From Bacillus cereus (lineage in GTDB: Bacteria > Bacillota > Bacilli > Bacillales > Bacillaceae_G), in contig NZ_NUOT01000004.1 in the NCBI RefSeq assembly GCF_002584535.1, forward strand, positions 1 through 34,789: DNA of 34,789 bases, in the 5' to 3' direction. The first letter of the stretch is position 1. Each line of letters begins with the position of its first letter. The notes under the pieces were generated by a model. The model did not search any database, was not told the origin of the DNA, and was given only the letters and a program-made list of their open reading frames with translations. Below, in pieces: positions 2,480 through 29,776 of this stretch. The translations under genes were made by a program, and so were the position numbers.

Positions 2480-2896
2480 ATGAGAGAAATTAAATTCAGA
2501 GCATGGACAAACGGTTGGATGGGAAGAGGACCAAGTTCAAAAATGATTTATAGTGGGGATTTGGCTGATCATTATGATTCGGAAAGCGCGATTGATTTCT
2601 ATCCGATTAAAGAAGGCGATACTCTTATGCAGTATATCAATCAAAAGGATTCAGAAGGAACAAAAATATATGAAGGTGATGTAGTTACCTGGTACAACCC
2701 GATGATTGAAACAGGAGAAAGAATGACAGGGGTTGTTGTTTACGATACGAAACAGGCTACATATAAGAAATGTCCTATCAATCTGTACAAAGCAAATGCA
2801 GGGAATGGAGGATACACCGGATACGAATTTAGATGGTATGACAATGTAAAAGTCTTAGGTAATATCCATGAAAATCCGGAGTTGTTACAAAACTAA
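2480..2896 (+). CDS. YopX-like phage protein
   Basis: The 138-residue protein starts MREIKFRAW, has the mid-region signature Q-Y-(I/T)-x-x-K-D-x-x-G-x-(K/E)-I-Y-E-G-D-V-V, and ends with V-x-G-N-I-H-E-N-P-E-L-L. These are the hallmarks of the YopX family of Bacillus SPbeta and many Firmicutes phages. The family folds as a small beta barrel and its function is unknown. AGGGAGG lies about 9 bases before the ATG. It belongs to the phage early array and uses the same leader as the genes before it. The length is normal for the family and no damage is visible. Confidence 0.85.
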   Translation: MREIKFRAWTNGWMGRGPSSKMIYSGDLADHYDSESAIDFYPIKEGDTLMQYINQKDSEGTKIYEGDVVTWYNPMIETGERMTGVVVYDTKQATYKKCPINLYKANAGNGGYTGYEFRWYDNVKVLGNIHENPELLQN

Positions 2897-2933
2897 ACAA
2901 AATAATCCTTTTAATAGAAAAGAGGAGATTGAA

Positions 2934-3329
2934 TTGAAAACATTCGATACGGGACTAAAAAGTAACTGGAGAGCATTTAAAGAGTTTGTGGAGAATAAAC
3001 AAAAAGATTATTTAACTAAGTATTACTTTGTGTTCGAAGAATGCGACTGTGGTGATACATCATATGTTTTCGTACAACACAATGAGTTGGATGATTGGTT
3101 AGAAAAAATGTTTTGGACATGGGGACGTTATGATACTGACGATCTAAGAAATTCAATGGGTGATGTGAAAGTTTGGAAACTAATATCTGAGGCTGACTTT
3201 AAAAAATGGAATCCGATTTATAAAGGGGCAAGAAAAACATCTATTGTTATCAATGATGAAGTGTATTATAGAAAACTAATGAAAATCAATGTAGAGCCAT
3301 CTGTAATTGTTTCAACTGATATTTATTAA
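2934..3329 (+). CDS. Hypothetical phage protein
   Basis: A 131-residue, Trp- and Asp-rich protein that I do not recognise. The start is taken as TTG 2934, preceded by AGAGGAG at about 7 bases; the in-frame ATG at 2868 lies inside the YopX gene and has no ribosome binding site. The protein is soluble, with an F-E-E-C-D-C-G-D segment near residue 40 and no membrane segment. It follows the YopX gene by 37 bases and lacks the hairpin leader, so it is probably co-transcribed with it. Confidence 0.6.
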   Translation: MKTFDTGLKSNWRAFKEFVENKQKDYLTKYYFVFEECDCGDTSYVFVQHNELDDWLEKMFWTWGRYDTDDLRNSMGDVKVWKLISEADFKKWNPIYKGARKTSIVINDEVYYRKLMKINVEPSVIVSTDIY

Positions 3330-3359
3330 AATAATCTTTATTAAAGAGAGGTTGGGAGA

Positions 3360-3482
3360 ATGAAAGGCTTGAAGAAAAGAAAGTTAAGAAAAGCAATTGC
3401 TCGCCGCGCAAAGGCAGTAGAGAAACATCAAGTCGATAACGCTTGGAGAAATATATTTGTACAAGCTGGTATTTTAAAGTGA
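3360..3482 (+). CDS. 40-residue basic phage protein
   Basis: ATG 3360 follows GAGAGGTTGGGAGA and opens a 40-codon frame beginning MKGLKKRKLRKAIARRAK, very rich in Lys and Arg in its first half. The second half (VDNAWRNIFVQAGILK) is amphipathic. It is followed directly by a strong terminator at 3517. Small basic proteins like this are common in phage early regions and may bind nucleic acid, but the function is unknown. Confidence 0.5.
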   Translation: MKGLKKRKLRKAIARRAKAVEKHQVDNAWRNIFVQAGILK

Positions 3483-3516
3483 AAGCGAACAGAATACAGT
3501 CCGGCTAGAAAACTAG

Positions 3517-3575
3517 AGGACACCAATTCATTAAGGCAGCAATTAAAGCTGTTTTATGAATAGGTGTCCTTTTTA
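3517..3575 (+). terminator. Long rho-independent terminator
   Basis: The arms AGGACACC and GGTGTCCT enclose further pairing (ATTCAT/ATGAAT and GGCAGC/GCTGTT), giving a long interrupted stem followed by TTTTTATTTT. It separates the early array from the genes leading to arpU. Confidence 0.75.
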
Positions 3576-3597
3576 TTTTGAAAAAGGAGATGGGGAA

Positions 3598-3768
3598 ATG
3601 AAGGCGTTAAAGGATCAGTTACGTGAATGGAAAAAGCAATCCAAGCAAGGAAAGAAGAAAAATAAGAAAAAACAAAAAGAGAAATTAAGTACTCGTGAAA
3701 TTGAGGATTTAATGGGGATGCATAGACCTTGTTATGAACGTAGACGCGGAGCTTTAAGACAAAAGTAA
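3598..3768 (+). CDS. Small Lys-rich phage protein
   Basis: The 56-residue protein starts MKALKDQLREWKKQ, passes through a KKKNKKKQKEK stretch, then has STREIEDLMGMHRPCYERRRGALRQK. Start 3598 has AAGGAGA 7 bases upstream; the in-frame ATG at 3556 falls inside the terminator. The C-terminal half (S-T-R-E-I-E-D-L-M-G) looks like a short DNA-binding helix-turn-helix and is similar to small proteins that precede arpU in Bacillus cereus phages. The function is unknown. Confidence 0.6.
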   Translation: MKALKDQLREWKKQSKQGKKKNKKKQKEKLSTREIEDLMGMHRPCYERRRGALRQK

Positions 3769-3795
3769 TTTAAAAATAAAAAGGAGTGGTCTTAC

Positions 3796-4278
3796 ATGAC
3801 TAAACAATTATCTTTCTTACCGAAAATCGATAGAGCAGCAACGCAGAAAAAATTAGAAGGTGTTCTGGAAAGTGTACGTTTATATAGACAGTTTGGAATG
3901 ATGCGTGAAGAAATGAAAGTCACTCCTTCTTATGAAATTAGATATCACGGACCTACAAATGATGTAGGGAAGCCATTAGAAGATGTAGCGATGGCTAATA
4001 TACAACAAAGTAAACGAGAAGAGTGGATTAAGCAAACATCATTTCGTATTGACCAGTTTCTTAGTCGTTTGGGTAATGGGCGTGCAGGAAAGGATCAAAG
4101 AAACATCATCATTAAGCGTTATTTAGAAGATGAAGATGTATGTGATTATATGGTATATAACGAAATCGGCATGAGCGAGCGTACTTATCGACGTGTTAAG
4201 GCTAGAGTATTTTATAAACTTGCTTTTGCTCTTAGATTAGAAGTTTATGAAACTGAAGAAACTGGAGGTAATGAATAA
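3796..4278 (+). CDS. ArpU family phage transcriptional regulator
   Basis: This 160-residue protein matches the ArpU family: an N-terminal L-x-x-V-x-x-x-L-x-x-Y-R segment, a central acidic helix, and a C-terminal sigma-70-region-4-like helix-turn-helix (about residues 105-150, with D-Y-M-V-Y-N-E-I-G-M-S-E-R-T-Y-R-R). ArpU-type proteins act as late-gene regulators in Gram-positive phages; the name comes from control of muramidase export in Enterococcus. AAGGAGTGG lies about 9 bases before the ATG. Its stop overlaps the start of the integrase gene (TAATG), so the two are translationally coupled. The protein looks complete, which is notable because its presumed late-gene targets have been deleted. 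Confidence 0.85.
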   Translation: MTKQLSFLPKIDRAATQKKLEGVLESVRLYRQFGMMREEMKVTPSYEIRYHGPTNDVGKPLEDVAMANIQQSKREEWIKQTSFRIDQFLSRLGNGRAGKDQRNIIIKRYLEDEDVCDYMVYNEIGMSERTYRRVKARVFYKLAFALRLEVYETEETGGNE

Positions 4279-4820
4279 TGAATTTTGTTCAGCCAATACG
4301 TGATCCAGAGCAAATACAACAAATAAAGGAGCACCTAAAAGAAAAGAGTGACAGGAATTATATATTGTTTGTAATGAGAATCAATACAGGCCTACGTATT
4401 AGTGATATTTTGAAGTTAAAGGTTGGTGACTTGAAAGGGAGTCACATCTCAATGCGTGAAATGAAAACAGGTAAGCAGAAGCGTATTCAAATTACTGCAG
4501 CGTTAAGAAGAGAATTGAAATGGTTCATTAAAGAAAGAGAGGACCATGAGTATTTAATTAAGAGCAGACAAGGTAGTAACAGGCCTATTGGTCGTAGCAT
4601 GGCATACAAAATACTTAGAAGTACAGCGGCAGAGTTTGGCTTAGATGAGATTGGTACACATACATTACGGAAGACATTTGGATACCATATGTACATGCAG
4701 ACAAAGAATATAGCGTTGCTAATGGAGATATTCAATCATTCATCGGAAAGGGTCACGTTAAGATATATAGGTGTAAACCAAGATGCAATGGATAGAGCGA
4801 TGAATAAGTTTAAGATTTAG
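4278..4820 (+). CDS. Short tyrosine site-specific integrase (phage)
   Basis: The 180-residue protein is the catalytic domain of a tyrosine recombinase with almost no N-terminal arm- or core-binding domain. The catalytic set is visible: Arg in T-G-L-R-I-S-D (about residue 40), Lys in the M-K-T-G-K-Q hairpin, H-T-L-R-K (about 130), His in F-N-H-S-S (about 155) and the nucleophile Tyr in L-R-Y-I-G (about 166). Paired with arpU in an overlapping arrangement, this is the standard small XerC/D-like integrase of Bacillus cereus group prophages. It is usually distinct from the large integrase that does lysogenic integration, so its DNA target is uncertain. No mutation is seen. Confidence 0.85.
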   Translation: MNFVQPIRDPEQIQQIKEHLKEKSDRNYILFVMRINTGLRISDILKLKVGDLKGSHISMREMKTGKQKRIQITAALRRELKWFIKEREDHEYLIKSRQGSNRPIGRSMAYKILRSTAAEFGLDEIGTHTLRKTFGYHMYMQTKNIALLMEIFNHSSERVTLRYIGVNQDAMDRAMNKFKI

Positions 4821-10616: not shown

Positions 10617-11117
10617 TTATTTTTTACCTGTTTTCTTGTAACCCTCAAAATCCTCAGGATAATGTCCATCTTCCTGACCGTATCTCCCTTTCTTCCAAGG
10701 ATTTCCACTTGTATTATCTGCAGTATGGAAATGGGGCCCTCTTCCCATTTTATCTTCTTTATGTTCGATAATATACTTTGTTTCACCTTTAAAATTAGTG
10801 TACTCCTCTACCCATCTATGTTCAGTAGTCCCATCAAATACTTGAACAGGGTTTTTACGCGGAGTAGAGTTAGGAATTCCAGCGGTTCGTCTTGCTTTCC
10901 GATATGCACCATTATTAGTTAATAATTTACCTTGTCTCTCAAGATGATCCTTATAATTTTCAGTGGCTTTAGCAGCTTGGGCTGCATCTGCAGTCATTTT
11001 CACACCTTTCACCATTTTAGCAAGCTTCCCAACGGGTGTAACACACAGAACCATCATTCCACCAGCTGACACTCGATCCAACCATGAAAGTTTATCGCCT
11101 GTTGATGGATCTATACC
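10617..11117 (-). pseudogene. Orphan polymorphic-toxin C-terminus (pre-toxin TG segment plus nuclease-like toxin)
   Basis: The frame opens right after a stop (TAA at 11118-11120) and reads GIDPSTGDKLSWLDR, then V-S-A-G-G-M-M and P-V-G-K-L-A-K. This is the pre-toxin TG linker that joins LXG/WapA-type carrier proteins to their variable toxins. The toxin part has K-A-R-R-T-A-G-I-P, a Y-T-N-F-K-G-E-T strand, an H-K-E-D-K-M-G-R-G-P-H-F-H block and H-Y-P-E-D-F-E. The R..AGIP...H..D...GPHF pattern is shared with several predicted nuclease toxins of Bacillus. There is no start codon with a ribosome binding site and no secretion domain, so this is a displaced toxin cassette lacking its carrier. The exact toxin family is uncertain. 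Confidence 0.65.
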
Positions 11118-17282: not shown

Positions 17283-17342
17283 AGGTCAAAAGATATTGGT
17301 TCAAAAAATCTACTGAAACGTGTCCCAGTATTGTTCGAGTGT

Positions 17343-17471
17343 TCAGTTGTTGGAATTACAGGTCGTATTCATACGAGTAATTATGAGAATGAACAGGGAA
17401 AGAGAGTGTATAACACAGAAGTTGTGATTGAAAGAATTAAGTTTTTGAAGAGGAAGAGCGCCCTACAGTAA
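17343..17471 (+). pseudogene. Partial second copy of ssb (C-terminal 42 codons)
   Basis: The frame S-V-V-G-I-T-G-R-I-H-T-S-N-Y-E-N-E-Q-G-K-R-V-Y-N-T-E to the stop is nearly the same as residues 70-112 of the ssbB product at 16586, with a shorter end. The first two thirds of the gene are missing, and the joint with unrelated sequence is near 17345. DNA identity to ssbB is high across the segment. Confidence 0.75.
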
Positions 17472-17997: not shown

Positions 17998-18978
17998 TTA
18001 TCTAGAATTAATAGTATAATTTTCATCATTAGATATTGCAAGATCACTTTCTGTTTCTGCAGGTTTTTTACTGAGTACAATGACGACTACAATAATACAT
18101 ATTGCTCCAATTATTTGAAAAAATAAGAAAGGAATATGCAAAATTATTACAGATGAAAGAATAGAGGCAAGAGGTTCTGTACATCCCAGTAAAGTAGTTT
18201 CCTTAGGAGAAATGTATCTTATACTATCTAAAAATAGATAGAACGAGATTAATGTTCCGAATATTACTACAAATGCGATTAACAATAATGTATAAACATC
18301 TAAATTTGGGATGTTTGCTAAAAAAACTACCTCTCTTTTTGTAGCAAACTGTAATATAGTTACTCCCAATCCCCCAATAATCATCCCCCAACCGACTAAT
18401 ACTGCAGAGGACCAATTTTCCAATAGCCCCTTTGAATAAAGGGTATAGAATGCTAAAGATAGCCCAGATAATACACCCCATATAATAGCTGGGATAGATA
18501 CAGTTAAGTTATTAATTGATCCATTGGTTAGTAATAAAAAAGTACCAAGGATAGCTAAAGTTATGGCTAAGACCTCGCCTTTAGTAGGCAACGATTTATA
18601 CTTCATAATGAGATAGATAGTAATAAAAAGAGGTGCTAAATACTGCAAAATGGTTGCTACAGCAGCATTCCCTTCATTTATAGATGCAAAGTATGTGTAT
18701 TGTACACCTAACATGCCTATTGTTCCAAAAATCACCAGTTTTATTGCTTCAGTTTTGTTTTTCCAAATACCTAGAATTTCTTTTTTATTTTGACCAAATA
18801 TTGAAATGGTTATAAGGGTTATTCCTGATAGCAGAAGACGAATTGTAACCAACCATTCAGTTGAAATTCCTTCTTTTTGAAAAAGTTGTTGTGCAACAGT
18901 TCCTGATAGCCCCCATAGACTAGCACCAATCACAACCATAATCATCCCTTTAATTCGATTCTTTTTATTAATGTTCAA
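17998..18978 (-). CDS. EamA-family (DMT) transporter
   Basis: The product of about 326 residues has ten hydrophobic segments in two EamA halves; the first begins G-M-I-M-V-V-I-G-A-S-L-W-G-L-S-G-T-V, the second P-A-I-I-W-G-V-L-S-G-L-S-L-A-F-Y. Such drug/metabolite transporters export amino acids and related small molecules. The start is taken as TTG 18978, 5-6 bases after GAGGTG; GTG 18987 is the alternative. It is transcribed in the same direction as the GntR gene 300 bases upstream and away from the diaminopropionate genes. Its position at the edge of the island makes it a candidate exporter of the island's product, but this is inference. It looks intact. Confidence 0.8.
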   Translation of the reverse strand: MNINKKNRIKGMIMVVIGASLWGLSGTVAQQLFQKEGISTEWLVTIRLLLSGITLITISIFGQNKKEILGIWKNKTEAIKLVIFGTIGMLGVQYTYFASINEGNAAVATILQYLAPLFITIYLIMKYKSLPTKGEVLAITLAILGTFLLLTNGSINNLTVSIPAIIWGVLSGLSLAFYTLYSKGLLENWSSAVLVGWGMIIGGLGVTILQFATKREVVFLANIPNLDVYTLLLIAFVVIFGTLISFYLFLDSIRYISPKETTLLGCTEPLASILSSVIILHIPFLFFQIIGAICIIVVVIVLSKKPAETESDLAISNDENYTINSR

Positions 18979-19102
18979 ACGAAGCACCTCACATTATTTT
19001 TAGAATATTACAGTCATTGGAATATATTATGCAATATATCACGAATGACAAAAAAGTTGAATTGAAATATTTTGAATTTTTTATATAAAGGGTACTAAGA
19101 TT

Positions 19103-19283: not shown

Positions 19284-19955
19284 TCACATAACAGAAAGAA
19301 TTCTTTGGATATCCCTCATTGGTCTTAACCAATTTATTGACATAGCGTGTTCTAGTAACATAGGATCACCACTTTCTAATGCCGTAATAATGTCTATATG
19401 CTCATTAATGGAATGTTCAGCAGGAACAAAGTTTTGGAAGAAAAGGTATTCAAGGCGTAATGCATGGAGGTGTAAATTGTCTAATAAAGGCTCTATATAT
19501 TTATTATTAGCTAGCGAAATTATCATATTGTGAAATTCAAAATCTAAGCTCATTGCCTTTTCTGAATCTTTCATAGTAATTGCGTGTTTAAAGTTTTCAT
19601 TTATTCGTTTAAGTCGTTTTATGTCTTTTTGTTTAATATTGTTAATTGCTTGTTTACCTACAATGACGTGCATACCGGCTATTGTTTCATAAATTACAGG
19701 TACATCTTCCAATTTCACAGGAGAAATTTTTGTTTTCTGTCCCCTAACCATTTCTACAAGACCAGAAAGTTCAAGAACTTGAAGTGCTTCTCTTACTGGA
19801 GTTCTACTAACACCTAAAGCATCGGCAAGATCATTATCATTAATTTTTTCATCAGGCTTCAAAACACCTTTAATAATCCAATCTTGCAACTGATTAAGAA
19901 CAATTGTTTTTGCAGAAAATCGTTCTTGTTTAGTATAGTTTTCAGGAATTGGCAT
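19284..19955 (-). CDS. GntR-family (FadR/FCD) transcriptional regulator
   Basis: The 223-residue protein has an N-terminal winged helix (about residues 12-75) with D-N-D-L-A-D-A-L-G-V-S-R-T-P-V-R-E-A-L-Q-V-L, the GntR signature. An all-helical FCD ligand domain follows (about 90-220) with D-F-E-F-H-N-M-I-I and a late E-H-A. FCD regulators bind small carboxylates or amino acids, often through a metal, and usually repress neighbouring catabolic or transport genes. AGGGAG lies 9 bases before the ATG. It faces away from the serine-kinase/sbnA/sbnB genes across a 940-base gap and is a likely controller of them or of the transporter. No damage is seen. Confidence 0.85.
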   Translation of the reverse strand: MPIPENYTKQERFSAKTIVLNQLQDWIIKGVLKPDEKINDNDLADALGVSRTPVREALQVLELSGLVEMVRGQKTKISPVKLEDVPVIYETIAGMHVIVGKQAINNIKQKDIKRLKRINENFKHAITMKDSEKAMSLDFEFHNMIISLANNKYIEPLLDNLHLHALRLEYLFFQNFVPAEHSINEHIDIITALESGDPMLLEHAMSINWLRPMRDIQRILSVM

Positions 19956-20899
19956 GATTTAATACTCCCTTTCATTCACTTTTCTATAGGTAATATATTA
20001 TATACAGAATAACAAAGCTATAACGATAAAGTAAAGAAGATTTTTAAAATTTAAATTTATCACAAAAAACGACTGTTTGTTCTGCAATCGGCACATATTT
20101 TTTAGAAAATTTAAAAAACTATTTCTAAAGTGATATTAATTTCAAAGTATTGTAAAAAATTGAAGTATCCGTTAGCATCTAGGCATGGAGGTGAATGGAG
20201 AAAAAAGATTTTTTTGGTAATTCATATTTTTGAGGAGTTGAAAAATAAAAGTATTAAATTTTATTACTTATTTCTTTTTTATTTTAGAATAGTATCCGCT
20301 CTATAAATGTTGCTGGAGGTATCAAAAAAAGGATGAACATTAATTATTCATTTTTATAATAAATTATAATAGTTATATTAAAATTTATTTATATATTAGT
20401 ATATTTTTGTTAAAGAAGCTTACTCTTATTAATTCGAATTTGAGAAATCCCCAAAAGTGTTTAGTGTTGTTACTAAAAATGCTTTCCTGTATTCAAGATG
20501 AAAGTGATGGCAGATTTTTGTGCCTTATTTAGATCGACAGGTGGGAGAAAACATTAGGTGGCTTATGAGACATAGCGGGGATTTTTTATTGCTAATTATT
20601 TTTTCTATGTAATCCGATGAAAAAAAGATAAAAAATAAGGGTATTTATCGTATATATTTTGGAAATATTTCATTTCTTAATTTCAGTTATCTTTATGTGC
20701 TCGAATAAAAAATAAATATTTTTTAAAGTATGGAAGATGTATTTAGAACGATCGTTTAAAGTTCCAAATATAAGTATCATTCTCTTGAATGTGTATTTTA
20801 TTTTTAAAAATATGTAGGTATTAATATGTGTTGCATTCAGAATATAATGTTATGCAAAATATAAAACTTATGTTATTCAAATTTTAGGGAGGAAGACGC
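19956..20899. other. Long AT-rich non-coding stretch upstream of the diaminopropionate genes
   Basis: No gene is supported in 944 bases, although short vestigial frames occur near 20500 (one reads MADFCALFRSTGGRKH before a stop). A 10-bp palindrome AACGATCGTT lies near 20748-20758. The stretch near 20480-20600 is less AT-rich than its surroundings and could be a gene scar. The promoter for the gene at 20900 must lie in the last 100 bases, but no clear hexamer pair stands out. Confidence 0.35.
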
Positions 20900-21661
20900 A
20901 TGTTATCTGAATTAAGAGTGGTGCCAACAGATCAAGTATTTTTACACGAAGAATATGAAATAGAAAGGTTATACAAGCTAAGTCATAAAATTAAGAGTGA
21001 ACAAAAATTAAAAAACCCTCCTATTGCTTTGCAACTTGATAACAATAAATATTTAATTCTGGATGGTGCTCATCGTACTTTATCTTTACGAAAATTGAAC
21101 TGTAAAAGAATGGTGGTTCAGGTGGTTACGGCAGAGTATTTATCAATTAATGCTTGGGCACATCACATTCTAAATGGAAAAAAACTAATAGAAGAATTGA
21201 AAGTTAACCAGAAGATATGCTTGAGTGATGAGCGACAAAATGATATACCAATGGCAACATTATATTATGAGGGAAAGGAGCAATATTTATATATTGTACC
21301 GGAGCATCAACTAACTTTAGAAAACAAAGTTAATGTTTGGAAGGAAGTTGTTAATTCCTATACAAACAAATATGAATTTAATAGAATTATGAGCAATCAA
21401 ACAATACAAGATGCTGGATTAGTGTTTAACTATACAACTCTAGATTTATATCAAATAAAACAAATAGTAGATTCAAATTTATTACTTCCAGCGGGTGTGA
21501 CGAAATTCACCTTGAATTGTGGCCGCATATTAAATTTAAATATTCCATTGAGTTTTCTAATTAGAGAGGATTTTGTGCAAGAAGATTGGGAAGAATTATT
21601 AGAATTGTGGGAATCTTCAATTAGATTGTATACTGATCCAGTCCTATTATGCGAAATATAG
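20900..21661 (+). CDS. SbnI/SerK-like free L-serine kinase (ParB/Srx fold)
   Basis: The 253-residue protein starts with the ParB/sulfiredoxin-like domain: V-V-P-T-D-Q-V-F-L-H-E-E-Y-E (E17 is the likely counterpart of the catalytic Glu of S. aureus SbnI) and L-I-L-D-G-A-H-R-T-L-S-L at residues 52-63, the nucleotide- and phosphate-binding motif. The C-terminal half (W-K-E-V-V-N-S-Y, L-P-A-G-V-T-K-F-T-L-N-C-G-R, L-N-I-P-L) also resembles SbnI, which is about 254 residues. SbnI phosphorylates free serine to O-phospho-L-serine, the substrate of SbnA. SbnI is also reported to act as a heme-responsive regulator, so a regulatory role is an alternative. GGGAGG is 9 bases before the ATG. It is the first of three co-directional genes, followed by sbnA- and sbnB-like genes. 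Confidence 0.75.
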   Translation: MLSELRVVPTDQVFLHEEYEIERLYKLSHKIKSEQKLKNPPIALQLDNNKYLILDGAHRTLSLRKLNCKRMVVQVVTAEYLSINAWAHHILNGKKLIEELKVNQKICLSDERQNDIPMATLYYEGKEQYLYIVPEHQLTLENKVNVWKEVVNSYTNKYEFNRIMSNQTIQDAGLVFNYTTLDLYQIKQIVDSNLLLPAGVTKFTLNCGRILNLNIPLSFLIREDFVQEDWEELLELWESSIRLYTDPVLLCEI

Positions 21662-21752
21662 TGTTTGAGGAGACAATAGCTACTTATTAAAAAATGAACT
21701 TACTAATGAGTAATGTGCACCTTTCTTATATTACGGTTTCACAATTAAATTG

Positions 21753-21762
21753 CTAGTACTAG
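21753..21762. promoter_or_regulatory. Palindrome upstream of the sbnA-like gene
   Basis: CTAGTACTAG is a perfect 10-bp palindrome 32 bases before the start of the sbnA-like gene. It could be an operator for the island's GntR regulator, or an overlap with a promoter; this is a guess from position. Confidence 0.25.
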
Positions 21763-21794
21763 TATATTAACTCTAATTGAAAAGGAGAAAGACT

Positions 21795-22778
21795 ATGATA
21801 CATGATAGCGTTCTTTCACTAATAGGTAATACCCCAGTAGTTAAAATTAATAATTTAGTACAAAATGATGATGCTGAACTATATGTGAAATTAGAAGGTT
21901 TCAATCCTGGTGGAAGTTCAAAAGATAGAGTAGCAAAACGAGTGATAGAATATGCTGAAAAACATGGGAAATTAAAACCAGGGGGAACAATTGTAGAATC
22001 ATCTTCTGGAAATCTTGCTATAGGTCTTTCAATTGTAGCGCAAATGAAGGGATACAAGATGATCTGTGTAGTAGATCCTAAAATAAGTAAGGTAAATTTA
22101 AACATTATTAAAGCATTTGGTGCACAGATTCATATGGTAGATGAGGCTGATGAATATGGAAATTATTTAAAAACAAGGTTAGCTACAGCACAAAACTTAG
22201 CAAAATCTATTAAAGGTGCCTACTGGCCGAATCAGTATAATAATCCTGAAAATCCTGAGGCTTACATCCGGTCTTTAGTTCGTGAAATTTATGAGGATTT
22301 TGGTGATGCCTTAGATTGGATTGTATGCCCAGTCGGAACAGCAGGTCTGATAACGGGAGTCGCAAAAGAAATGAAAATATTAAATCCAGCTGTGAAAATT
22401 ATGGCTGTTGATGCTGTAGGTTCCGTTATATTTGGAGGAGCACCAGGGACACGCAGACTACTTGGAATCGGAAATGCAATTGTTCCAGGAAATTTAAATA
22501 CTAGTTTATATGATGATTTGAGCTATGTAAATGATGCAGATGGATTTTTTATAACGAGACAGCTTGCTTTAAAAGAAGGGCTCTTAGTAGGAGGCTCTTC
22601 TGGGGCAACAGTTTGTGCAGCTTTAAGATTATTAGAAAAATTACCAAAAGACAAAAAAGTATTAGCTGTATTACCAGATAGAGGCGATCGATATTATAGT
22701 ACAATTTTTTCAGACGATTGGCTGAATCAGAATGAAATTCAGTTGCCTGAGGGTAATAATGAATCTGTTTTAATTTAA
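21795..22778 (+). CDS. sbnA: SbnA-like N-(2-amino-2-carboxyethyl)-L-glutamate synthase
   Basis: The 327-residue PLP enzyme has the cysteine-synthase fold: the PLP lysine K43 in P-G-G-S-S-K-D-R, S-S-G-N-L at residues 70-74, P-V-G-T-A-G-L for the phosphate cup and G-G-S-S-G-A-T near the end. Blocks specific for SbnA rather than CysK are present: C-V-V-D-P-K-I-S, Y-W-P-N-Q-Y-N-N, V-D-A-V-G-S-V-I-F-G and L-P-D-R-G-D-R-Y. SbnA joins O-phospho-L-serine and L-glutamate to give ACEGA, releasing phosphate. The start at 21795 has AAGGAGA 7 bases upstream; the longer frame from 21777 runs over that site. It follows the serine-kinase gene by 130 bases and precedes sbnB by 36, so kinase, synthase and dehydrogenase form one pathway unit. 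Confidence 0.9.
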   Translation: MIHDSVLSLIGNTPVVKINNLVQNDDAELYVKLEGFNPGGSSKDRVAKRVIEYAEKHGKLKPGGTIVESSSGNLAIGLSIVAQMKGYKMICVVDPKISKVNLNIIKAFGAQIHMVDEADEYGNYLKTRLATAQNLAKSIKGAYWPNQYNNPENPEAYIRSLVREIYEDFGDALDWIVCPVGTAGLITGVAKEMKILNPAVKIMAVDAVGSVIFGGAPGTRRLLGIGNAIVPGNLNTSLYDDLSYVNDADGFFITRQLALKEGLLVGGSSGATVCAALRLLEKLPKDKKVLAVLPDRGDRYYSTIFSDDWLNQNEIQLPEGNNESVLI

Positions 22779-22814
22779 TTAAAAATTAACTTTCAATTAA
22801 AAGGAGTGCTATTT

Positions 22815-23834
22815 ATGTTATTAGAAACTAAACCAGAATTAATTTACCTTAGCAAACAGGATATTATTAACCTAGGTGGTTATGAATCAGAAATCTATGT
22901 GAAAGCTATAAAACAAGCTTTGACTATACATTCTAAAAAGAATTTTAGTCAACCTTTAAAACCATATTTAAAGACAAATAAAGAAGGAGAGCATATTGCT
23001 GATAGAATTATTGCTATGCCAGCATACTTGGGTGAACCTAATATTTCTGGGATTAAATGGATAGGTAGTAAGTTTGATAATCCTATAAAAAAGAATATGG
23101 AAAGAGCAAGTGCATTAATTATTTTAAATGATCCTGAAACTAATTTTCCAATTGCTATTTTAGAAGGTAGTGTTATTAGTTCAATGAGAACTGCGGCGGT
23201 GACAGTAGTAGCAACTGAATATCTAGCTAAGAATGGATTTGAAAGAGTTTCTATCATGGGTTGTGGATTGATTTCTAGAATGCATATAAATTCTTTATTA
23301 GAACAGTTTAATAGTATCAAACAAATTAATTTGTTTGATTTAGATAATGAAAAAGCACAAGTATTGGCTCAGGATATGAAGAAACGTTTTAATAATGTAG
23401 AGTTTCAAATTCATAGTTCAGCTCAAAGAGCAGTGGAAGTAGCTGAAGTACTTGTAACATGCACGGTAGCAGATAAACCTTATATTAAGTCAGAATGGAT
23501 TCAAAAGGGAACTTTTGTAAGTAACATCTCAATTATGGATATAGAAAAAGATGCATTTTTAAAAGCAGATAAAGTGATTGTTGATGATTGGGATCAAGCA
23601 AACAGAGAAAAGAAAATAATAAATCAACTCGTATTAGAAGGGAAATTTTCAAAAGATATGCTACATGCAGAACTGGGAGATATTATTACTGGTAAGTGTG
23701 CAGGAAGAACAACAGATGAAGAAATTATAATATTAAATCCTATGGGAATGGCAATAGAGGATATCTCATGTGCACATGAAATATATGAGAAAGCCCGAGA
23801 GAATGGAGCTGGAACGGTATTAAGTTTATATTAA
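22815..23834 (+). CDS. sbnB: SbnB-like ACEGA dehydrogenase, L-2,3-diaminopropionate forming
   Basis: The 339-residue protein belongs to the ornithine cyclodeaminase/mu-crystallin fold and closely follows S. aureus SbnB: P-L-K-P-Y-L, H-I-A-D-R-I-I-A-M-P, G-I-K-W-I-G-S-K, I-L-N-D-P-E-T-N, S-S-M-R-T-A-A-V, the NAD-binding I-M-G-C-G-L-I, V-V/I-D-D-W-D-Q, N-R-E-K-K-I-I-N-Q-L-V-L-E-G-K-F-S-K and N-P-M-G-M-A-I-E-D-I-S. SbnB oxidatively splits ACEGA with NAD+ to L-2,3-diaminopropionate and 2-oxoglutarate. Start 22815 follows AAGGAGTG; the frame from 22806 would ignore it. A very strong terminator closes the unit. The remaining staphyloferrin B genes are absent from the window. Confidence 0.9.
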   Translation: MLLETKPELIYLSKQDIINLGGYESEIYVKAIKQALTIHSKKNFSQPLKPYLKTNKEGEHIADRIIAMPAYLGEPNISGIKWIGSKFDNPIKKNMERASALIILNDPETNFPIAILEGSVISSMRTAAVTVVATEYLAKNGFERVSIMGCGLISRMHINSLLEQFNSIKQINLFDLDNEKAQVLAQDMKKRFNNVEFQIHSSAQRAVEVAEVLVTCTVADKPYIKSEWIQKGTFVSNISIMDIEKDAFLKADKVIVDDWDQANREKKIINQLVLEGKFSKDMLHAELGDIITGKCAGRTTDEEIIILNPMGMAIEDISCAHEIYEKARENGAGTVLSLY

Positions 23835-23845
23835 TGAATAATTGA

Positions 23846-23888
23846 TTTAAACAAAGAAACTGTATAATTTACAGTTTCTTTGTTTAAA
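23846..23888. terminator. Strong terminator after the sbnB-like gene
   Basis: A 19-bp perfect stem (TTTAAACAAAGAAACTGTA and its complement) with a 5-base loop. It separates sbnB from the broken second kinase gene. Confidence 0.85.
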
Positions 23889-24083
23889 AAAGGACATTCT
23901 TATTAAAATATTTAAAAATATCCTTTTTTATTTAATGAAATAGTAGAAAAGATTTTAATAATTGATTTGCATACTGTAATGTATTTGACTGGTATTTACA
24001 CTTATCATTAACTATACTTCTTGAAGGGAAATGGATAAATTATAAAAAGTTATTAGTGAAGTTAAAAGAGAAGGAATACAGAT

Positions 24084-24792
24084 ATGATAGAGAATGTCCA
24101 ATTGATTCCCTTTAATCAAGTGATTTTTTATGAACAATATGATAAAGAAAGAGTAACTATGATTGAAAATAGTATTGCAGATGAGAAAATTCTTATAGAT
24201 TTACCAGCTGCACTGAAAACCAGTTCAAATCAATATCTTATATTGGATGGTACACATCGTACCTTAGCTTTAAGGAATGAATATTCCAACTCAAATAGTG
24301 GATGAAAATAGCCTGCAGGTTAGTTCTTGGATTCATCAAATTTCTAAGAGTGGGGATTTACTAAAGAGAATTTTCGATAATTCTCATATTTACTGTTCAG
24401 AAAAAATCTTAGACGGAAACAGGTATGTAACTAATATGTGTATGGATGATAAAATGTATTATTTATATAGCAGTAATACGTGTAATAACCCAATAGAATA
24501 TGTTACTAATATGTTAAATTCGGTCATAACAATGTATACAAATAATTCTAGCTTTAAAAGGTTAAAAAAAGAAGAATATAACCCAACTTTTTCTAGTATT
24601 ACATTTGAGTTTCCGATATTTTCAATACAAGAAATATTAAAGATTATTAGTAATAAAGATTTATTTCTACAAAATGTAGTAAGATTTGTTATTGCATGTG
24701 GAAAGTTAAGGGATTTGAAGATTCCAATCAATATTATACGAAGCCCTGAAGTATTTGAATTTGATTGGAAAGAGCTTCTAAAAATAAACTAA
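24084..24792 (+). pseudogene. Second SbnI/SerK-like gene, frameshifted
   Basis: The first 66 or so residues align without a gap to the intact homologue at 20900: E17 is kept, and L-I-L-D-G-T-H-R-T-L-A-L falls at residues 52-63. The frame then stops at 24303 and the remaining protein (I-P-T-Q-I-V-D-E-N to W-K-E-L-L-K) continues in the +1 frame from about 24280. Compared with the intact copy about four residues are missing at the joint, so a deletion near 24285 (about 11 bases) fits better than a single-base slip. AGAGAAGGAATACAG supplies a weak ribosome binding site. The gene is diverged from its paralogue, so it is an old duplicate or came with the racemase gene behind it. Confidence 0.7.
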
Positions 24793-24907
24793 AAATCTTA
24801 TTCTAGCAAGAGTATAGGATAAGATTGGAGGATACGGATTTTTGAAGTAATCTAACGTATATGTGATCATTTCAAATGATTAATGGTTAAAATTCACTTA
24901 AGTTAAG

Positions 24908-24940
24908 ACAGCTTATTCTGTTAAAAAAGCTGTTTTTTTA
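24908..24940 (+). terminator. Rho-independent terminator before the racemase gene
   Basis: The stem ACAGCTT/AAGCTGT (24908-24933) is followed by TTTTTTT. It isolates the racemase gene from the broken kinase gene. Confidence 0.7.
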
Positions 24941-24996
24941 TGGTATGCGAGGATTATATCTCGGTAATAACGTGATTTATTTAAGGAGGAGCTAAA

Positions 24997-26139
24997 TTGA
25001 GTGATACTACATATGCAACATGGGCAGAAATACATTTAGATTCACTGGCGCATAATTATCAATGGTTTCGTAAAAATATTTCGTCTAACACAAAAATTTT
25101 TGCGGTGGTAAAAGCAAATGCATATGGACATGGTCTAGTTCCTATTGCAAATTGCTTAATGAAAGAGGGAGTTGATGGTTTTACTGTTGTTTTCCCATAT
25201 GAAGGAATTGAATTAAGAAGAAAGGGAATTGATTTGCCTATTATTATTTTGTCACCTTTTTTTTCGGAGCAAGCTAAAGAAATTGTAAGATGGAATTTAA
25301 CACCTAGTATAACACATAAAAAACAATTGCTTGATTTAGCTAAGTGGACAAAACTATTTAACGTAAATATTAAAGTCCATATAAAAGTAGATACAGGTCT
25401 TGCACGTAGTGGATCTCGTAATCGAAATGAACTTTTAGAATTGTTAAAAATGGCGAATGAATTACCGGGTATAGAGATAGAGGGAGTATTCACTCATTTT
25501 GCATCAGCAGATCATCCCAATGCTTTATATTTAAAAGAAGAAAATGAGCGGTTTCTAAAAATGATATACAATATTACAGATCATTACGATATCCCATTAG
25601 TTCATGCTGCAGCTACAGCAGCGACAATCAGATCTATAGATACGCATTTTGATATGGTTAGGATAGGGCTAGGGTTGTATGGATATGACCCATTGCCGGA
25701 TTATTTAGAACGAAATTGCCCACTTAGGCCAGTAATGACCCTGAATACCAGGATTGCATATCTAAAATGGATTGAGGAGGGTGAAAGTATTGGATACAAT
25801 CGGAAATATACAGCAGATAAACCTATGCATATTGCAACTGTTCCAATTGGATATGCAGATGGAATGAATCGAAGAATAGCTAATCGTTATTCTTTTCATG
25901 TAGATGACCAGTGTTGTAAAATACGTGGGAATTTATGTATGGATCAAATTATGATTGATGTTACCAAAGTCGAAAATGTTGGTATAGGACAAAAAGTTAC
26001 CGTTATGGGAAGGGATCAACTTACAGCTAGATCATTGGCAGAATGTTTAGGTACAGCAATTGATGAGGTTTTATGTTCAATATCTACAAGAGTTCCTCGT
26101 TTATACCTAAAACAAGAGGAATTCTTATTAACACTATAA
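24997..26139 (+). CDS. Alanine-racemase-family PLP racemase in the diaminopropionate island
   Basis: The 380-residue protein has the Alr layout: the PLP lysine K39 in V-V-K-A-N-A-Y-G-H-G, V-D-T-G-L-A-R-S-G (usually DTGM.R.G, here Met to Leu), E-G-V-F-T-H-F-A, the second catalytic Tyr in S-I-G-Y-N-R-K-Y (about residue 265), and C-M-D-Q near 311. All catalytic residues are present and the length is normal. The start is TTG 24997 after AAGGAGG. Bacillus genomes already carry other alanine racemases. Together with the place beside the L-Dap genes this suggests an accessory racemase, perhaps acting on alanine, serine or diaminopropionate; the sequence alone does not decide. Confidence 0.85.
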   Translation: MSDTTYATWAEIHLDSLAHNYQWFRKNISSNTKIFAVVKANAYGHGLVPIANCLMKEGVDGFTVVFPYEGIELRRKGIDLPIIILSPFFSEQAKEIVRWNLTPSITHKKQLLDLAKWTKLFNVNIKVHIKVDTGLARSGSRNRNELLELLKMANELPGIEIEGVFTHFASADHPNALYLKEENERFLKMIYNITDHYDIPLVHAAATAATIRSIDTHFDMVRIGLGLYGYDPLPDYLERNCPLRPVMTLNTRIAYLKWIEEGESIGYNRKYTADKPMHIATVPIGYADGMNRRIANRYSFHVDDQCCKIRGNLCMDQIMIDVTKVENVGIGQKVTVMGRDQLTARSLAECLGTAIDEVLCSISTRVPRLYLKQEEFLLTL

Positions 26140-26598
26140 AAAAGGAAAAACGTCGTTTTTTATGCTTGTCTAATTTTAAGATGTCATTTTGAAAGAGTAA
26201 AATAAATAAGGTTTCTTATGTGATAGTAAGAGAATAGGAACTGTAAAAGGAAAGTGTTTTAATAGAGTTAATATGGTGAAGATGATGAACTTGAAATATT
26301 GGAGAAACAATAAAGTGAAAATTCCATCAATGAGTCTTCATTCCCACTGATGGAAAGCCCTCACCAACCAAGCTTTTATTGCATGCGAATAGCTGGATAA
26401 AAAACATAATAGTGTAAGGTTTAAAAAGGAGTTTTTAAAAAGCAGAAAAAAGATTGAGAAGTTAAAGAATATAATTTAAGTAAATTCTATATTAAGCATA
26501 TCAGCAATGAATAGTAATTTACATCTTTTAAGGGGGACATAGAATACAATTGAGATTTATAAAAGCAAGCGTCTCAGTAGGAGTATAGCGATAGAACA
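26140..26598. other. Intergenic stretch with an inverted repeat
   Basis: About 500 bases without a supported gene. An 8-bp perfect inverted repeat TTCCATCA/TGATGGAA (26322-26355, 18-base loop) lies in a less AT-rich patch (about 26315-26400) that looks like part of a repeat element or a lost gene. Nothing else is recognised. Confidence 0.35.
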
Positions 26599-29525: not shown

Positions 29526-29549
29526 AAGCAATAATCAATTATATATTAT

Positions 29550-29776
29550 GTCGTAGATGAAGAGAGTAGTCTGGTTCAGAAGTAAAGCGAGCTAGGGATG
29601 GTGAGAGCCTAGTACGGAGAAACGGATGAAGCGCACTTCGGAGACGCTGCTTGAAATGAATAGTAGAGTAAGCCGGGGCCCCCTGTCCTCGTTATAAACG
29701 GGAAAGTGGTTCGTAGTGGACAACAAGGGTGGTACCACGGGTGATAACTCGTCTCTTTTTTAGAGACGAGTTTTTT
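29550..29776 (+). promoter_or_regulatory. T-box riboswitch for arginyl-tRNA, specifier CGC
   Basis: The leader carries a full T-box: stem I with the distal-loop sequence GCTAGGGATGGTGAGAGCC, the specifier-loop region GAAGCGCACTTCGGAG, in which CGC (29632-29634) followed by AC fits an arginine codon, then the conserved T-box AGGGTGGTACCACG (29726-29739). A terminator follows, whose 5' arm is shared with the antiterminator. Uncharged tRNA-Arg would pair with the specifier and with the UGGN bulge to stabilise the antiterminator and allow argS expression. The arginine reading is supported by the gene downstream. Confidence 0.9.
29746..29776 (+). terminator. T-box attenuator terminator
   Basis: The stem AACTCGTCTC/GAGACGAGTT is followed by TTTTTT; it is the off-state structure of the riboswitch. 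Confidence 0.9.

Follow-up and report, generated by a model that had tools for sequence, protein, structure and literature searches.

The window (the whole stretch of DNA analysed, 34.8 kb) includes three consecutive genes for an SbnI-like kinase, an SbnA-like synthase and an SbnB-like dehydrogenase. Protein families were assigned with Pfam and NCBIfam profiles, and 30 window ORFs were scanned with Pfam. The features are:

17998..18987, minus strand: EamA/DMT-family transporter (PF00892, E 2.1e-38), divergent from the kinase
19021..19049, no strand: conserved non-coding element upstream of EamA, AATATATTATGCAATATATCACGAATGAC (alignment with three Brevibacillus-family EamA–kinase intergenic regions)
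19284..19955, minus strand: GntR/FCD transcriptional regulator (PF07729 and PF00392)
20900..21661, plus strand: SbnI-like ParB/SerK-fold protein, probable free L-serine kinase (NF033589, 171.7 bits)
21795..22778, plus strand: SbnA-like PLP beta-replacement synthase of a remodelled clade (TIGR03945)
22815..23834, plus strand: SbnB-like NAD-dependent dehydrogenase (TIGR03944)
23846..23888, plus strand: terminator-like hairpin, probable operon end (-23 kcal/mol, z -8.6)
24084..24792, plus strand: second SbnI-like gene, divergent, broken and probably decaying (two pieces in different frames)
24997..26139, plus strand: alanine racemase, a neighbour (TIGR00492, 341.9 bits)

All genes named in the original prediction are intact ORFs lying at or near the positions it gave. 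The kinase, SbnA-like and SbnB-like genes do stand in series, with SbnA and SbnB profile scores above the cut-offs, and the GntR/FCD and racemase genes said to frame them are present. The EamA transporter, proposed there as an exporter, is likewise present and is a partner of the set, but its gene lies outside the interval 19284..26139 to which the cassette had been assigned. ATG codons at 21795 (SbnA) and 22815 (SbnB) are likelier starts than those of the longer TTG/GTG ORFs because of Shine-Dalgarno sequences.

Against NF033589 (SbnI) the kinase has an E value of 1.8e-50, and its score is under the equivalog cut-off of 350, as are those of the three Brevibacillus-family kinases (174–176 bits). 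Its alignment with SbnI chains of S. aureus has an E value of 8e-38. Glu17, predicted to be a catalytic-type residue, and Asp55 correspond to Glu20 and Asp58 in the SbnI chain of 6nr6 (numbered by counting along the alignment), and both are kept in 50/50 aligned SbnI-like rows, some rows being one genome twice. According to a portion of PMC9641203, Glu20 and Asp58 are required for the kinase activity of SbnI, and EdeB, an SbnI relative, is a DNA-binding activator. The window protein is a probable free L-serine kinase making O-phospho-L-serine. Since it misses the SbnI cut-off and EdeB provides a precedent, a regulatory role is conceivable, and it could be a regulator instead of, or besides, being a kinase. 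The cassette kinases form one clade in the tree. A protein search with the kinase in a collection of genome contigs gave 31 pattern matches, none of them confirmed.

The SbnB-like protein (401.1 bits; TIGR03944 cut-off 326.9) matches structure 4m54 with E 2.5e-126. Cassette SbnBs differ uniformly at 2 of 111 invariant columns, as compared with 0–4 in control clades, and form one clade within a 31-row group (100/98) of mostly Bacillota staphyloferrin-B SbnBs. The reaction expected of SbnB, as given in part of PMC7139808, is oxidative hydrolysis of ACEGA to L-2,3-diaminopropionate (L-Dap) and 2-oxoglutarate. A near-unchanged SbnB is expected if the substrate is still ACEGA.

The SbnA-like protein is also above its equivalog cut-off (391.9 bits; TIGR03945 cut-off 349.95), and its best solved relatives are SbnA 5d87/5d84. 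Its clade is altered at 16/91 invariant columns, as compared with 0–2 in five control clades. Arg132, Tyr152 and Ser185 of S. aureus SbnA are presumably the O-phosphoserine residues. The equivalents of Arg132 and Tyr152 are retained, the place of Ser185 is Gly in 4/4 cassette rows and Ser in 82/82 other SbnA-type rows, and Ile is found where all 80 other rows have Arg. The cassette rows form one clade, which a long branch sets apart from the main staphyloferrin-B group, in a tree for which the tool warns about long branches. Because of the loss of Ser185 and the 16 altered columns, the donor or nucleophile of the cassette SbnA may differ from the standard one.

A search of other genomes for conserved partners of the three genes found EamA recurring with them in 3/39 genomes of one family, one of which is named Brevibacillus laterosporus (genomes G001, G337 and G338; loci L005/L130, L128 and L129, 18–19 kb each). 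In these, EamA adjoins a kinase–formyltransferase–SbnA–SbnB series. EamA, kinase, SbnA and SbnB are 62–81% identical to those of the window (EamA, in the same place, 64–66%), their order is identical, and the stretch upstream of EamA is in common. Unlike the window, the Brevibacillus cassettes include the formyltransferase gene between kinase and SbnA, have other flanks, and show no match to the FCD family or the racemase (L128–L130). Among the three copies, dN/dS is 0.03–0.16 for all five genes, indicating purifying selection, and since the set has been kept in this way in 3/39 genomes of the family, the window set is not a fragment. Cassette DNA gave no match to plasmids, and the CvfC-like, racemase and formyltransferase proteins gave none to viral contigs. 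Locus L085, a "virus" match that has its genes in common with L005, was set aside as apparently the margin of Brevibacillus host DNA. An argS DNA search of 299 genomes of one order gave 72% identity at best. Synteny of the window with MW302330.1, together with a short stretch matching a Bacillus paramobilis plasmid, points to a Bacillus in or near the cereus group.

A 19-pair hairpin (0/200 shuffles as good) lies directly 3' of SbnB and probably ends the operon. It is absent from the list of a simple terminator scan. The racemase, whose best PDB matches are 4y2w (262 bits) and 4lus (238), is probably a separate unit and a mere neighbour, since this hairpin separates it from the set and the Brevibacillus loci contain no match to it. 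The predicted partnership of the racemase with the cassette was not supported, and therefore a D-Dap product and a wall or spore role, to which nothing found points, were rejected. The second SbnI-like gene had been overlooked. Its first piece (24084–24305) contains DGTHR and ends with a stop at 24305, and its second piece (24277–24792) scores 47.7 bits against NF033589. Because the two pieces lie in different frames, the gene is broken, unless there is a sequence error, and is probably decaying.

The best 29-base match of the region upstream of EamA to the Brevibacillus EamA–kinase regions is 24/29. For G001 it is the element 19021..19049 (1/300 shuffles as good). For G338 no shuffle of 300 was as good, the best-scoring stretch being a neighbouring one and not 19021..19049 itself. 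A second copy before the kinase (20844) was not relied upon because it has 5/21 mismatches and an equal match occurs elsewhere in the window. Borderline matches to the same Brevibacillus region were given by the kinase–SbnA gap (21/29; 10 and 6 of 300 shuffles) and by the FCD–kinase gap (23/29 for G338, 9/300 shuffles; 22 for G001, 55/300). The GntR/FCD protein is a candidate local regulator of the set. A promoter scan gave no more matches than in shuffles, and an Rfam scan of the window gave the argS T-box only. Weak PerR-like matches with 2 mismatches occur in three Brevibacillus regions (5–9/100 shuffles as good) and the window (27/100), and a weak CcpA-like match with 1 mismatch in the window (6/100). 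With a limit of 3 mismatches and staphyloferrin-B operons as the positive control, a Fur box was detected in 40/46 Bacillota staphyloferrin-B operons tested and 44/79 over all loci. None was found upstream of the cassette, where the best candidates have 4–5 mismatches, as in shuffles. No Zur box was found in the cassette loci.

The best-known use of Dap is in the assembly of siderophores and peptide antibiotics. Profile, motif and tblastn scans of the window found no NIS synthetase, NRPS or PKS, including no NIS trace by tblastn at E 1e-4 and no adenylation or KS Pfam family among the 30 ORFs scanned. No IucA/IucC-type NIS (SbnC/E/F) was found in the window, L005 or L128–L130. An adenylation/KS motif scan, which can overlook domains (the edeine-like L173 also had 0), gave 0 matches in the window and L128–L130, and the longest ORF of the Brevibacillus loci encodes 591 aa. 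The prediction of a set with no siderophore or NRPS synthetase beside it is supported, none having been found in the window or in the three Brevibacillus-family loci. The nearest IucA/IucC genes are ~39 kb from the cassette in G337 and G338 and on a separate contig in G001, and their neighbours in G337 look petrobactin-like. The cassette resembles the staphyloferrin B L-Dap module of the S. aureus sbn cluster in its three enzyme families, its SbnB group and the kinase Glu/Asp pair. It differs in that no NIS or Fur box was found, SbnA is remodelled and EamA adjoins. Among the titles and abstract openings listed from the open-licence literature searched, none refers to a Dap cassette standing alone in Bacillus or Brevibacillus.

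The reading tentatively favoured is that of a self-contained operon by which a Dap-type amino acid would be made and then exported, either unchanged or with a single modification. With the same reservation, the set would not be part of a siderophore or assembly-line antibiotic pathway. Using serine and a nucleotide, the kinase would form O-phospho-L-serine. The SbnA-like enzyme would exchange the phosphate for an amine donor, most likely glutamate, to give ACEGA, and the SbnB-like enzyme would oxidise and hydrolyse ACEGA to L-Dap and 2-oxoglutarate. The divergent EamA, a putative carrier of this substrate, would then take the amino acid out of the cell. In Brevibacillus, the 10-formyl-THF-type formyltransferase would perhaps formylate an amino group before export. 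The window version lacks this enzyme, which is counted against the explanation. Release of a small unusual amino acid is probable because the set stands alone with a likely exporter and is kept in related bacteria. That the product is plain L-Dap is uncertain because the SbnA clade has lost common features and a formyltransferase is present in Brevibacillus. Outside the cell, Dap or N-formyl-Dap may inhibit neighbours as an antimetabolite, a role proposed a little more hesitantly than the operon itself. FMDP acts as a glutamine analogue. This N3-acylated Dap inhibits GlcN-6-P synthase, as recorded in part of PMC5673977.

The substitutions in SbnA would also be accounted for if the remodelled enzyme used a different nucleophile, which it would join to phosphoserine or some other serine ester. 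The product, after oxidation by SbnB, would then be another beta-substituted alanine and not plain Dap. The long branch of SbnA outside the main staphyloferrin-B group, with SbnB inside it, agrees with this, as does the sister of the cassette kinases at L138, which adjoins an SbnA-like gene in a locus with no SbnB match. However, the near-canonical SbnB fits ACEGA, and SbnA keeps its equivalog score and the Arg132 and Tyr152 equivalents, and this alternative is considered rather unlikely.

Slightly less likely still is a role in which the operon feeds Dap in trans to an NRPS or another ligase whose gene lies elsewhere in the genome. Most of the SbnB loci compared adjoin such enzymes (NIS in 77/80, others being NRPS/PKS-linked), and a table of PMC3179956 is in line with this. 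The NRPS/PKS-linked modules for edeine, zwittermicin and viomycin share the SbnA/SbnB pair, and that for edeine also has an SbnI-like ParB gene, edeB. Unlike these, the window yielded neither an adenylation nor a ketosynthase domain, and the Brevibacillus loci neither the motif nor a large ORF. In the trees, the cassette SbnA and SbnB are placed apart from the NRPS/PKS-linked rows. The set stands free in two genera, where its flanks differ, and its own transporter would be needless for an intracellular precursor.

An exported metal chelator, namely an opine- or EDDS-like aminopolycarboxylate such as ACEGA, which has that shape, is improbable. EDDS, a zincophore of Amycolatopsis japonicum, is a precedent for a Dap-type module that yields a small released molecule without an NRPS, and locus L181 joins kinase, SbnA and SbnB with a nicotianamine-synthase-like gene, a staphylopine dehydrogenase and EamA. 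Unlike L181, the window has no member of the nicotianamine-synthase or opine-dehydrogenase families among the 30 ORFs scanned. The cassette loci also differ from the EDDS genes in that neither a Zur box nor a fumarase/lyase signature motif was found in them, the controlled Fur scan was negative, and SbnB should destroy ACEGA. That the set is what is left of a staphyloferrin-B cluster in decay, its synthetases lost, is suggested by the group of SbnB and the adjoining broken SbnI-like gene. This is rejected as highly improbable, given that the same set is under purifying selection in three other genomes, SbnA is not of that lineage, and neither an NIS trace (tblastn of the window at E 1e-4) nor a Fur box was found.

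As a conserved set that could make Dap and has a transporter, with no assembly enzyme found next to it, the cassette points to free or singly modified Dap as a released metabolite in its own right. The locus further offers a natural experiment in which a phosphoserine-dependent synthase has been rebuilt next to an unchanged partner enzyme, and the set (three to five genes) is simple enough for complete in vitro work. It may represent a class, not described before, of minimal and transferable operons for amino-acid antimetabolites, consisting of kinase, remodelled SbnA, SbnB, EamA and optional tailoring enzymes (the formyltransferase in Brevibacillus) and making and exporting a Dap-derived or other beta-substituted alanine. 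In such a class, put forward with the same hesitation as the antimetabolite role, SbnA would have been adapted to a new partner, with SbnB still canonical.

Arrangement of the genes and other elements in the window
10617-11081, minus strand: ORF encoding a nuclease toxin domain of the HNH/EHHH type (PF15657)
17998-18987, minus strand: EamA transporter
19284-19955, minus strand: GntR/FCD regulator
19956-20899: gap between the regulator and the kinase (944 bp, 24% G+C, without an ORF of at least 100 aa)
Following, plus strand, in this order: SbnI-like kinase, SbnA-like synthase and SbnB-like dehydrogenase (profile matches)
23846-23888: 19-pair hairpin directly 3' of SbnB (-23 kcal/mol; mean of the shuffles -4.2)
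3' of SbnB: broken second SbnI-like gene, then alanine racemase
29545-29759: T-box leader (Rfam RF00230) before the arginyl-tRNA synthetase gene

The kinase, SbnA-like and SbnB-like genes are present in series on the plus strand, as the original prediction held, and SbnA and SbnB score above the NCBI curated cut-offs. The kinase matches the SbnI profile strongly, yet below the cut-off. Folding of the 133-base kinase-SbnA gap showed no special structure. The hairpin after SbnB has a U-rich 3' arm, and is named only terminator-like because a simple terminator scan did not include it in its output. The racemase lies behind this hairpin with its own Shine-Dalgarno sequence, and the broken SbnI-like gene sits between the two. 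Elsewhere in the window, the YopX-family and integrase genes at 2480-4820 are perhaps a prophage end or remnant.

The closest solved relatives by sequence are S. aureus-type SbnI chains for the kinase, SbnA chains for the synthase, and 4m54, given as SbnB in a review table (PMC7139808), for the dehydrogenase. In the alignment, the kinase retains both residues matching SbnI Glu20 and Asp58, which are required for kinase activity (PMC9641203). SbnA forms ACEGA from O-phosphoserine and glutamate, and SbnB converts ACEGA and NAD to L-2,3-diaminopropionate (L-Dap) and 2-oxoglutarate (PMC7139808). Caution is due on the first step, as relatives of SbnI can act as DNA-binding regulators too; EdeB does so (PMC9641203), and so does SbnI itself (PMC7139808).

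An SbnB search of a species-level genome collection gave 167 confirmed loci, 80 of which were examined; the top relative among those 80 belongs to Brevibacillus laterosporus (81%). An IucA/IucC match (E 1e-4) was found in 77 of the 80, the three loci without one being L005 (B. laterosporus) and the short metagenome contigs L034 and L036. L036, a Crocosphaera MAG contig with SbnA, SbnB and no siderophore synthetase (NIS) match in 14.6 kb, touches the debate on Dap and BMAA in cyanobacteria. Among the 39 genomes of the B. laterosporus family, 18 have an SbnI-like kinase and three a kinase of the window type (62-64%); the remaining kinases are at 33-38%, one being split in two with a short piece at 52%. 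The original prediction looked to other genomes for conserved partners, and EamA recurs with kinase-SbnA-SbnB in these three of the 39, in the order EamA (minus strand), kinase, formyltransferase, SbnA, SbnB. Their flanks include a SpoVR-family gene or insertions. For all five genes, dN/dS within this trio of genomes is 0.03-0.16; between the window and these genomes, synonymous sites are saturated or nearly so.

The formyltransferase matches PF00551 (E 6.8e-11), and its middle part only, residues 114-224 of 293, aligns with phosphoribosylglycinamide formyltransferase 3p9x (E 2.6e-10). It contains NAHSA and DxGxDTG stretches, the Asn, His and Asp of which we take to be functional residues. No record in the plasmid collection covers 80% of it.

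Each of the three genomes, G001 (B. laterosporus), G337 and G338, has two IucA/IucC genes, located about 39 kb downstream of the cassette in G337 and G338 and on another contig in G001. Those of G337 adjoin an acyl-CoA synthetase gene and a sugar-isomerase-like gene and are read as a petrobactin-type cluster, a type that is not known to use Dap. In 58 kb of G338 (L128, L136 and L137), starting about 10 kb before the cassette, there is no ORF longer than 860 aa.

In wider draws, which overlap and include the centre genomes, genomes with a match to the kinase protein number 3 of 299 in one order, 0 of 19 in one family, 50 of 398 in the class and 2 of 398 in the phylum. From 37 of the 50 class genomes 38 regions were fetched; the rest comprise the three cassette genomes and ten from the B. 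laterosporus family that were left out. NIS matches occur in 23 of the 38 regions, and 10 of the 15 NIS-free regions carry an adenylation/KS motif or resemble the edeine type (L159, L160, L163, L164, L165, L173, L178, L181, L185 and L190), the motif match in L181 being probably an acyl-CoA ligase as judged from the ORF list. L154, L156, L161, L168 and L183 have no NIS match and no adenylation/KS motif, and none has both SbnA and SbnB. L181 aside, no stand-alone kinase-SbnA-SbnB set was found among the 38 regions; the adenylation/KS motif scan is incomplete and missed the edeine-like L173.

L181 (9388-19174, genome G522) carries in series kinase, FAD/NAD protein, SbnA, SbnB, lactate-permease-like, nicotianamine-synthase-like, staphylopine dehydrogenase and EamA genes, possibly for a Dap-based opine metallophore. 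In L154, L156 and L161, a kinase without SbnA or SbnB match adjoins short-chain-dehydrogenase-like and acyl-CoA-ligase-like ORFs; L168 (8136-11167) has a kinase, an SbnA-like gene and a transporter-like ORF, with no SbnB match.

Columns at least 95% invariant in other rows were compared, a change being one different residue common to all four cassette rows. In SbnA (compared with 80 other rows after exclusion of five that are odd or not SbnA) 16 of 91 such columns are changed, and in SbnB (82 other rows, three excluded) 2 of 111; in five control clades, each with two to four rows, the changed columns number 0-2 and 0-4, respectively. The Ser185 equivalent is Gly in all four cassette rows, against Ser in each of the 82 other SbnA-type rows; the Arg132 and Tyr152 equivalents are retained. 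Gly also occurs in three cysteine-synthase rows, in which the Arg and Tyr are absent. The Tyr152 and Ser185 positions reportedly recognise O-phosphoserine; in PDB alignments, the 5d87 chain, unlike 5d84, carries Phe and Gly there. From these residues we conclude that the pocket of the cassette SbnA differs from that of usual SbnA, with phosphoserine likely still the donor.

In midpoint-rooted trees (46, 47 and 31 rows from 48 selected loci), the cassette rows form a single clade for SbnB (100/100), SbnA (100/100) and kinase (98/90). SbnB falls within a group of 31 rows (100/98), most of them from Bacillota staphyloferrin-B loci. The SbnA branch is very long (3.46) and lies apart from the main staphyloferrin-B group, in a tree for which the tool warns of long branches. 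These positions suggest separate histories: the cassette pieces seem not to have one common history, and SbnA seems to have been replaced or rebuilt. The closest kinase outside the cassette (57%) is encoded by a plasmid (CP045534.1) from Bacillaceae bacterium C02. There (L138, 9259-20655) it accompanies an HpaB-type hydroxylase, a Nudix-like gene, an M24 peptidase and an SbnA-like synthase, with no SbnB match beside them, near dihydropyrimidine-dehydrogenase-like genes and an ORF resembling orotate phosphoribosyltransferase by eye; a pathway to another beta-substituted alanine is possible.

Upstream regions of the cassette gave a best Fur box match of 4-5 mismatches, equal to shuffles, and no Zur box (best 5-6 mismatches); PerR-like and CcpA-like operator matches were weak. 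A Fur box with at most 3 mismatches is present in 40 of 46 Bacillota staphyloferrin-B loci tested (L040 was untestable) and in 44 of 79 of all loci tested; the positive control L001 has one with 1 mismatch. Upstream of EamA, 24 of 29 bases match the Brevibacillus EamA/kinase region (shuffles as good, 0 of 300 for G338 and 1 of 300 for G001). The kinase-SbnA and FCD-kinase gaps match it at a borderline level, and the stretches that precede the broken gene and the racemase show no match (63 to 235 of 300 shuffles as good). Since only the EamA upstream region matches clearly, EamA, not the racemase, is favoured as a member of the set. Of the genes originally thought to frame the cassette, EamA, which also recurs in three genomes, is kept, and the racemase, behind the hairpin and with no upstream match, is probably only a neighbour.

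MW302330.1, labelled Stenotrophomonas phage TS-12 in GenBank, is collinear with the window on the SSB side up to about 17280 (HD-domain, ABC-ATPase, Bax-inhibitor-like and SSB genes; 72-80% DNA identity) and on the CvfC-like side from 26560 (84%). Between these flanks lie about 1.8 kb in this record, which include an FAD monooxygenase, against 9.3 kb in the window, and the window cassette and racemase proteins have no tblastn match in its 31-kb stretch. With both flanks shared but not the 9.3 kb between, the cassette, broken gene and racemase are all placed in a variable part of a Bacillus-type chromosome. The 31 kb read of this 80-kb record include SSB, CvfC-like, YphP-like and annotated sporulation-protein genes, and the phage record looks mislabelled or contaminated. 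Window 17305-17452 and the end of the window SSB gene match the same stretch of it (26343-26492, at the SSB gene); the former may be a second copy of the SSB end, at the border of the variable region.

L-Dap is probably the direct product of the cassette, and on balance EamA is expected to export it. That the product is an antimetabolite is a more tentative suggestion, made by analogy because an N3-acyl-Dap compound is active (PMC5673977) and the cassette design is free-standing. Pairs of sbnA/sbnB with unknown product were catalogued already in 2011 (PMC3179956), and therefore a pair of this kind is no novelty on its own. As far as the searches show, what is new is a conserved cassette with a transporter, a formyltransferase variant and a remodelled SbnA, best explained as a self-contained operon that would make and export L-Dap or a close beta-amino-alanine.
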